Assembly (NCBI GenBank): GCA_025056305.1
Contig: JANWWJ010000043.1
Coordinates: 62,001-126,000, forward strand
Direction: 5' to 3'
Length of the DNA: 64,000 nt
DNA from: Chitinophagales bacterium
Lineage (GTDB): Bacteria; Bacteroidota; Bacteroidia; Chitinophagales; UBA10324
Below the pieces are notes generated by a model. That model did not search any database and had not been told where the DNA came from. It saw nothing but the letters and a program-made list of their open reading frames with translations. Of the stretch, positions 34,716 to 37,470 are shown one piece after another. The position numbers were made by a program, and so were the translations under genes. Position 1 is the stretch's first letter. Each line of letters starts with the position of its first letter.

Positions 34716-36047
34716 TTACAGATCGCGCACACATTCCTTGAATTGGCGTCCCCGTTCTTCGTAGTTTTCAAACAAGTCAAAACTGGCGCATGCAGGGGAA
34801 AGCAGCACGCAGTCACCAGGGGCCGCTAGATGGAAAGCGGCTTTAACGGCGTCTCTCATGTTGTTGGTATTGACGATTAAGTCTACACTGTTGCTGAAGG
34901 CTTCGTGCAGTTTACGATTGTCCACCCCCAAGCACACCAACGCTTTAACCTTTCTGCGTACCAGATCCGTAAGCATACTGTAATCATTTCCCTTATCCAC
35001 CCCACCGGCAATCCAGATAATGGGTTTGTTGATGCTTTCCAAAGCATACCAAGTAGCATTTACACTGGTCGCTTTGGAATCATTGATGAACTCCACGCCT
35101 TTGATGTCAGCAACCCATTCGAGACGGTGTTCCAACGACCTGAAGTCGCTCAGTGCCTCCCGAATCAGGTCGTTTTTGATGTCAAACAGCCGCGCGACAA
35201 TGCCGGCGGCCATGGAGTTGTACACATTGTGTTTACCCCGTAATCCAAGTTTTGGTACTGGCATGGTGAAGGAATTTTGGTTTAGAGAAAAAACTATTTG
35301 ATCGTGGTGCAGCCAGGCTCCCTGGCTCAATGTTTTTTCTTGCGAAAAAGCAAGGCATTGGGCCTTTACCTGATGACGTTCCAGGCCCGCCCGGGTTTCG
35401 GCATCATCGGCACAATAGATCAAATAATCCGATGCGTCCTGTGCTTGCGTGATCCGAAACTTGGTGTCGGCATAGCGCTGCATGCTGTATTCGTACCGAT
35501 CCAGATGATTGGGTGTGATGTTGGTGATGACGGCCACCCATGGCTTGAATGCATAACAATCTTCCAATTGAAAGCTGCTGACCTCTGCTACATAACAGGC
35601 CGCCTCGCGTTCGGCAAGCTGGCCGGCAAAGCTTTTACCAATGTTGCCGACCAAAGCGACATCCATGCCGCTTCGTTGCAGCAGGTGCCACGTGAGCGTT
35701 GCAGTGGTTGACTTGCCGTTCGTTCCCGTAATGGCTACGACAGGGGCGCGTGTGTGCTGCGCAGCAAATTCTATTTCGGAAATGATCGGTATTCCCTGTT
35801 GGCGCAACGCAGCCAACACTGGGGAGTTGGGTGCTATGCCCGGACTTTTGATGATTAAATCCGCGCCAAGCATGCGGCTTAGATCGTGTTGGCCCTCTTC
35901 AAAGGGGATGCCGGCTTGCAGCAGCTGCTGGCGCCGCTGAGGGCGAAGGCTGCCGCTGTCGCTCACCAGCACCTCATGACCAAGCTTTTTTGCCAGCAAG
36001 GCAGCTCCAAGGCCACTTTCTCCTGCTCCGATCACTACCACGTTCAT
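34716..36047 (-). CDS. murD: UDP-N-acetylmuramoyl-L-alanine--D-glutamate ligase
   Basis: Adds D-Glu to UDP-MurNAc-L-Ala. 443 residues with the N-terminal VVIGAGESGLGAALLAKKLG, the P-loop ITGTNGKSTTATL, the NITPNHLDRYEYSM segment and the C-terminal FINDSKATSVNATWYAL and IAGGVDKGNDY. The ATG overlaps the stop of the small basic ORF by 4 bp (ATGA), so its translation is probably coupled to that ORF instead of directly to mraY. ftsW follows after 9 bp. Confidence 0.98.
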   Translation of the reverse strand: MNVVVIGAGESGLGAALLAKKLGHEVLVSDSGSLRPQRRQQLLQAGIPFEEGQHDLSRMLGADLIIKSPGIAPNSPVLAALRQQGIPIISEIEFAAQHTRAPVVAITGTNGKSTTATLTWHLLQRSGMDVALVGNIGKSFAGQLAEREAACYVAEVSSFQLEDCYAFKPWVAVITNITPNHLDRYEYSMQRYADTKFRITQAQDASDYLIYCADDAETRAGLERHQVKAQCLAFSQEKTLSQGAWLHHDQIVFSLNQNSFTMPVPKLGLRGKHNVYNSMAAGIVARLFDIKNDLIREALSDFRSLEHRLEWVADIKGVEFINDSKATSVNATWYALESINKPIIWIAGGVDKGNDYSMLTDLVRRKVKALVCLGVDNRKLHEAFSNSVDLIVNTNNMRDAVKAAFHLAAPGDCVLLSPACASFDLFENYEERGRQFKECVRDL

Positions 36048-36226
36048 GCTTTCACCCAGATTAGGGTATTATCCTTAGGTTGTGTTTTTCTGCGAAGGCG
36101 CGCCTTGACAAGTTGGACCTGCTTCTTGCGCCAGCGGTTCAGCCGTCGGCGCGTACGACGAATCAACTTAGCCCGTTGCCGCTCGCTGAGCAGGATCCAG
36201 TTCTGCCATTCAAGACGCCCCATCAT
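36044..36226 (-). CDS. Small strongly basic protein encoded between mraY and murD
   Basis: A 60-codon ORF hidden in the ORF track inside a longer 178-codon frame that overlaps mraY and is not credible. The real start is set by the junctions: the mraY stop TAA shares its last A with the ATG (TAATG), and the stop overlaps the murD start (ATGA). Such double coupling is the same style as the other dcw junctions. The product (starting [10 protein letters not shown]) has about 20 Arg/Lys against three acidic residues, including a RRTRRRLNRWRKK core, and no membrane helix or signal peptide. I do not recognise a family. RNA, ribosome or anionic-membrane binding is possible from charge alone. It could also be a non-functional coupling ORF that carries ribosomes to murD. 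Confidence 0.7.
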   Translation of the reverse strand: MMGRLEWQNWILLSERQRAKLIRRTRRRLNRWRKKQVQLVKARLRRKTQPKDNTLIWVKA

Positions 36227-37470
36227 TAACGAATTTTTAATGTAACTAACGTTAATACCGCCAATAGCATTCCGACGATCCAAAAACGCGTTACGATTTT
36301 CGGCTCGGGATACCCCAACACCTGATAATGATGATGCAGCGGGGCCATGCGAAAAACCCGTCTGCCTGCGCCGTACCGCCAGCGCGTGTACTTGAAGTAG
36401 GCAACTTGGATGATCACCGACAGATTTTCGATTAAAAAGATGCCGCACAGCAACGGCAATAACAGTTCCTTCCGTACCGTAATAGCCAGCGTGGCAATGA
36501 TGCCGCCCAGAGCCAATGAGCCCGTATCGCCCATGAATACCTGAGCCGGATAGGCATTGTACCATAAGAATCCAACACAAGCCCCGATAAAAGCAGCCGA
36601 AAAAACCAGCAACTCACCACTGTTGGGGATATACATGATGTTCAGATAGTCGGCCAACAGAATATTGCCTGATACGTATGCAAAAATTCCTAAAGTTGCA
36701 CCGGCAATGGCTGAAACACCGGTAGCCAGCCCGTCCATGCCATCGGTGATGTTGGCAGCATTTGAAACGGCGGTGATGATGATGACTACAATTAAAATAT
36801 ATACCACCCACGTGTACCGTTCCCATTCGCGGTTGATCCAGCTCAGCAACCTGCCATAGTTGAATTCATGGTTCTTTACGAAGGGAATGGTCGTGATGGG
36901 CAGTTTAGCATCCACGTATTGTGCGGTTGCTTTCTCTACGGGCGAGAGCAGTAGCTCTTCCTGAGGAGGTTGCTGCGCGTGCACCAACGGCCGACGTACC
37001 ACTACGTCGGAATGGAAATACAAAATGGAACCCACAAGAATTCCCAGGGTAATTTGTCCAAACAACTTCGACCACGCCGTAAGACCTCTTTTATTCTTTT
37101 TAAAAACTTTAATATAATCGTCAACAAAACCGATTAATCCACACCAGAGGGTTGTCGCCAGCAGCAACAACACATAGATGTTGTGAAGTTTGGCAAACAA
37201 GAGGGTAGGAATAAGGATGGCCGCCAGTATTATCAGCCCGCCCATAGTTGGGGTTCCTTCTTTTTCCATCTGCCCCTGAAGGCCGAGATCCCGAATGCTT
37301 TCACCCACTTGTTTGCGCCGCAAAACCTTCAACATCCATTTGCCAAAAAACAGGCCTATGAGCAACGAAAGAATGATGGCCATGCCCGCCCGAAAGGAGA
37401 TGAACCCAAACAAGCCGGCCCCCGGCAGATCGAAACGCTCATCCAAAAACTCAAACAAATAGTACAACAT
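36226..37470 (-). CDS. mraY: Phospho-N-acetylmuramoyl-pentapeptide transferase
   Basis: Integral membrane enzyme that makes lipid I from UDP-MurNAc-pentapeptide and undecaprenyl phosphate. About ten helices; motifs [36 protein letters not shown] (catalytic Asp pair), [22 protein letters not shown] and the HHHYQ of MAPLHHHYQ. At 414 residues it exceeds the E. coli protein (360), mainly through an extra hydrophilic segment of about 55 residues ([12 protein letters not shown] ... [10 protein letters not shown]) between helices, as is common in Bacteroidota. murE ends 17 bp upstream; the next small ORF overlaps the stop by one base. Confidence 0.98.

Follow-up and report, generated by a model that had tools for sequence, protein, structure and literature searches.

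A Probable Small Basic Gene Between mraY and murD

The dcw operon of the Chitinophagales bacterium analyzed here, covered completely by a stretch of 64,000 nucleotides (the window), contains between mraY and murD a 60-codon open reading frame (ORF) that, judging from comparison with its closest sampled relative, is very likely a real, translated gene under selection. We consider it probable that this is a genus-restricted small protein gene, which was inserted between mraY and murD and is translated as part of the operon.

The ORF (36044–36226; 60 amino acids, 61 codons with the stop) is on the minus strand, as are the upstream neighbor mraY (36226–37470) and the downstream neighbor murD (34716–36047), and it is locked to both. 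The ORF start codon ATG begins on the final base of the mraY stop codon TAA (36226–36228, minus strand), giving TAATG with position 36226 in common, and the ORF stop codon TGA overlaps the murD start codon ATG by 4 nt (ATGA, 36044–36047, minus strand). The product is very basic, with 20 lysine and arginine residues, three aspartate and glutamate residues, and a pI of 12.0. An earlier, sequence-only reading of this DNA had described the ORF with its double coupling, its basic composition, the core RRTRRRLNRWRKK, and the 178-codon TTG frame (36044–36580) that conceals it, and all of these features hold, with the strand now specified as minus. The operon, in a genome of 2.4 Mb, comprises mraZ, rsmH, ftsL, ftsI, murE, mraY, the ORF, murD, ftsW, murG, murC, ftsQ, ftsA, and ftsZ, with most junctions overlapping or no more than about 20 nt apart. 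The Bacteroidota-type promoter TTTG-N(17-23)-TANNTTTG had no matches across the whole window.

The double coupling had been taken as an argument for either a real product or a translational relay. As an argument, it is weaker than assumed: In shuffled sequences, a given frame is open across the mraY-murD gap with P = 0.12 (12 to 25% of shuffles across estimates), and a doubly coupled ORF arises with P of about 0.03 (range 3 to 5%), so that the anatomy alone is only suggestive. These frequencies are in line with an alternative explanation, namely, a chance open frame in a GC-rich noncoding insertion, with the likeness between species amounting to residual DNA similarity, an explanation that we consider quite improbable given the coding tests described below.

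A Syntenic Ortholog in a Congeneric Species

Only one other genome of the genus has been sampled (hereafter, the congener), and all evidence of selection on the ORF accordingly comes from a single species pair. The mraZ-to-ftsZ cluster is collinear in the two genomes, with 87% identity for mraY, 77% for murD, 64 to 76% for most other dcw genes, and 50% for ftsQ. In a genome search, the best match to the ORF in the congener fell at its mraY-murD junction (E = 3.3e-5), where an ORF of 62 amino acids starts 5 nt past the mraY stop and ends in the same ATGA overlap with murD. The two products are 35% identical overall, with higher identity in the core (codons 9 to 37, 36116–36202, minus strand; NWILLSERQRAKLIRRTRRRLNRWRKKQV), which is delimited by the two-species alignment and includes the common pattern QRxxLLxRTxRRLxRWRKKQV. 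The C-termini, encoded next to the murD start, differ between the species (DNTLIWVKA and NPSNQTEQ). A local tblastn search against the corresponding stretch of the congener did not recover the ORF at 1e-3, which we attribute to composition-adjusted scoring of the basic peptide; similarity was therefore assessed by shuffling instead. The local protein alignment of the two ORFs scored 102, whereas 2000 shuffles that preserved the composition reached 66 at most.

Signatures of Selection on the Peptide

Over an ungapped block of 37 codons, the in-frame BLOSUM score was 97, whereas none of 5000 column shuffles exceeded 80 (0/5000), and the other frames of the same block scored 4 and 33 in the forward and 5 to 54 in the reverse direction. 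Substitutions in a 22-codon core numbered 5, 6, and 11 at codon positions 1, 2, and 3, respectively, with the third position changing most. An independent alignment at the DNA level contained only two indels, each of 6 nt and in frame. The neighboring genes have diverged to dS values of 1.6 to 3.2 where these could be estimated (murE is saturated and its value not calculable), and at such distances the DNA of the ORF would have been scrambled if it were not under selection. The ORF itself is highly divergent (dN of about 0.5 over the 37-codon block), and its codon usage falls between that of coding and that of shuffled DNA, with the genes of the window as the reference.

The preserved core, the indels in multiples of three, the shuffle tests, and the saturation of synonymous sites together indicate that the peptide sequence is under selection, for which the evidence from sequence comparison is strong, though from a single pair. 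A chance frame would fit the observation that strong DNA similarity between the two ORFs spans only about 36 nt, but not a coding-frame score above those of all column shuffles and of the other five frames, nor the confinement of all indels to the reading frame. The sequence-only reading had named absence from close relatives, or a lack of purifying selection, as what would speak against a gene; in the congener, the ORF is present and selection on it is apparent. Of the two possibilities raised at the outset, these comparisons favor a real, selected product, and a relay, with ATGA kept in both species, is compatible with it.

Distribution Across Bacteroidota

The mraY-murD junction was surveyed at 168 loci containing both genes, taken from the family, the order, and contig records of Bacteroidota, in which a few genomes are counted twice (the congener is listed as both L020 and L140). 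The gap between the two genes has a median of 6 nt and a 75th percentile of 24 nt, and a gap-spanning ORF coupled at both ends was found only in the window genome and the congener. The other members of the family have gaps of about 19 to 62 nt and no such ORF, and several relatives have gaps of 75 to 260 nt with no spanning ORF. In the nearest relative outside the genus, as measured by MraY, the contig runs on past mraY with neither murD nor the ORF; at this locus (L142), mraY is followed by a noncoding stretch of more than 200 nt, the start of another frame (MNTASQNQISMLTTSEQEI...), and the contig end.

Searches beyond the junction gave the same picture. A profile made from the two sequences identified no credible third member among 399 genomes of the order or 396 genomes of the phylum, and its matches outside the genus in these genomes were weak and chance-like, many of them with internal stops. 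No homologue was confirmed in a scan of contigs with the ORF as the query, and plasmids yielded no credible match. The reading of the ORF as a general dcw gene of Bacteroidota was thus rejected, the ORF being absent from the junction in every genome examined outside the genus, including the rest of the family. As sampled, the ORF appears to be restricted to the genus, in which it is found in two species, and it may also occur in close relatives outside the current sampling.

The survey also brought up other departures from the usual arrangement of this region. In a Flavobacteriaceae metagenome-assembled genome (MAG; UBA3356, L086), a 412-nt mraY-murD gap contains a different gene, encoding a 23S rRNA-intervening sequence protein (PF05635, E = 2.3e-15), with a stop codon 8 nt beyond the projected murD start; the junction therefore takes up unrelated small genes elsewhere. 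A MAG labeled Lacinutrix (L075) has a 332-nt gap with a 104-amino acid ORF immediately after the mraY stop, the product of which has a lipoprotein-like N-terminus and no Pfam match. At three loci from one family of the same order (L171, L173, and L174; family f8), no murD was found within about 600 nt of mraY, which is followed instead by an acylphosphatase-like and then a DnaK-like frame, as identified by eye, so that the dcw cluster is seemingly broken after mraY. In another genome (G005, L032/L033), mraY matches in two pieces, residues 1 to 267 and 286 to 414, separated by about 340 nt, which suggests that MraY contains an insertion or that the assembly is faulty here.

A Putative Translational Relay

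The coupling anatomy is maintained in both species, as TAATG and ATGA in the window and as the 5-nt gap and ATGA in the congener. From this arrangement, we infer that ribosomes finishing mraY would reinitiate at once on the ORF and would then move from the ORF to murD through the ATGA overlap, such that the 180-nt insertion would leave the coupling of mraY to murD unbroken. A conserved translational relay to murD is, in our assessment, fairly likely.

Whether such a relay alone might account for the ORF has to be considered. Under this explanation, the inserted DNA would be kept open just for the transit of ribosomes from mraY to murD, and the peptide would have no function. The placement of the start beside the mraY stop and of the stop over the murD start in both species agrees with this, as does the spacing of no more than about 25 nt between mraY and murD in most relatives, from which the operon seems to favor closeness. 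Transit, however, calls for an open frame and not for a conserved peptide, whereas the core is preserved at the amino acid level despite saturated synonymous sites, and the wider gaps of several relatives are tolerated with no ORF spanning them. We therefore regard a functionless peptide as improbable.

A regulatory leader peptide, in which a polybasic nascent chain would slow or arrest ribosomes and thereby tune the translation of murD, would be compatible with the location of the ORF directly before murD and with its dense run of arginine and lysine. The C-terminal stretch adjoining the murD start lacks conservation, unlike a C-terminal arrest motif, which makes an arrest peptide of that type less likely. 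Furthermore, folding of the gap RNA showed nothing unusual in the window or the congener (z = −0.96 and −1.44) and the window has no Rfam match, so a structured RNA or leader element was rejected and we consider a leader peptide very unlikely.

Predicted Properties of the Product

The AlphaFold model of the product, obtained with the two-row alignment, consists of a short helix (residues 7 to 12) and a long helix of 34 residues (15 to 48), the latter including most of the conserved core, with a block mean pLDDT of 91 to 94 over residues 11 to 40 and a pTM of 0.50. The best 18-residue windows of the helix are amphipathic, and the hydrophobic moment of the whole helix is weakly above that of shuffled sequences (P = 0.11 and 0.04). 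A lone predicted helix probably tells little about function. Sequence inspection revealed no hydrophobic stretch of membrane-helix length, in agreement with the earlier reading.

The product had no significant match in Pfam or NCBIfam, and a fold search of the PDB with the model returned no match. Sequence matches to Protein A constructs in the PDB (whole-sequence E values down to 1.9e-7) were rejected: They covered only profile positions 6 to 23, and no single stretch passed on its own, for which reason we take them to be chance similarity summed over repeats.

In its most likely mode of action, the predicted basic α-helix would bind to a polyanion or acidic surface, with RNA or the ribosome, the anionic inner membrane, or a Mur or Fts enzyme at the site of synthesis as candidate targets. 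A target in the membrane or among the division and cell wall proteins is quite possible, and a nucleic acid target is a somewhat more tentative prospect. A more specific proposal, that the product is a recently acquired, genus-specific regulator made alongside MraY and MurD, which might regulate the synthesis of lipid I or, alternatively, the early divisome (or its mRNA), is rather unlikely at this level of detail.

Relationship to Known Systems

The literature searched yielded nothing on a gene at the mraY-murD junction. The order of dcw genes is among the most conserved in bacteria, and all genes of the canonical series murE-mraY-murD-ftsW-murG-murC-ftsQ-ftsA-ftsZ keep their customary order in the window and the congener alike; compared with it, these species carry a single additional gene, between mraY and murD, which, at the 168 loci surveyed, no genome from outside the genus shares. 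A selected extra gene at the center of the dcw cluster, with the coupling intact, would be a clean case of a young small gene wired into an essential operon, and might point to a lineage-specific regulator of cell wall synthesis.

With its predicted single helix, dense arginine run, and tryptophan, the product resembles arginine-rich-motif RNA-binding helices, such as those of lambda N and HIV-1 Rev. We treat this resemblance as a lead only, with no detectable homology to these proteins and with an arginine-rich composition that by itself could account for the likeness. Another parallel is offered by lineage-restricted (orphan) small proteins that annotation overlooks or lists only as hypothetical: Like them, the ORF is short, confined to one genus, fast-evolving, and unmatched to any family. 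Unlike typical orphan small proteins, it is coupled at both ends within an operon that ranks among the most conserved in bacteria. The ORF thus appears to belong to a known kind, that of lineage-restricted small genes, and it is the location that is unusual.
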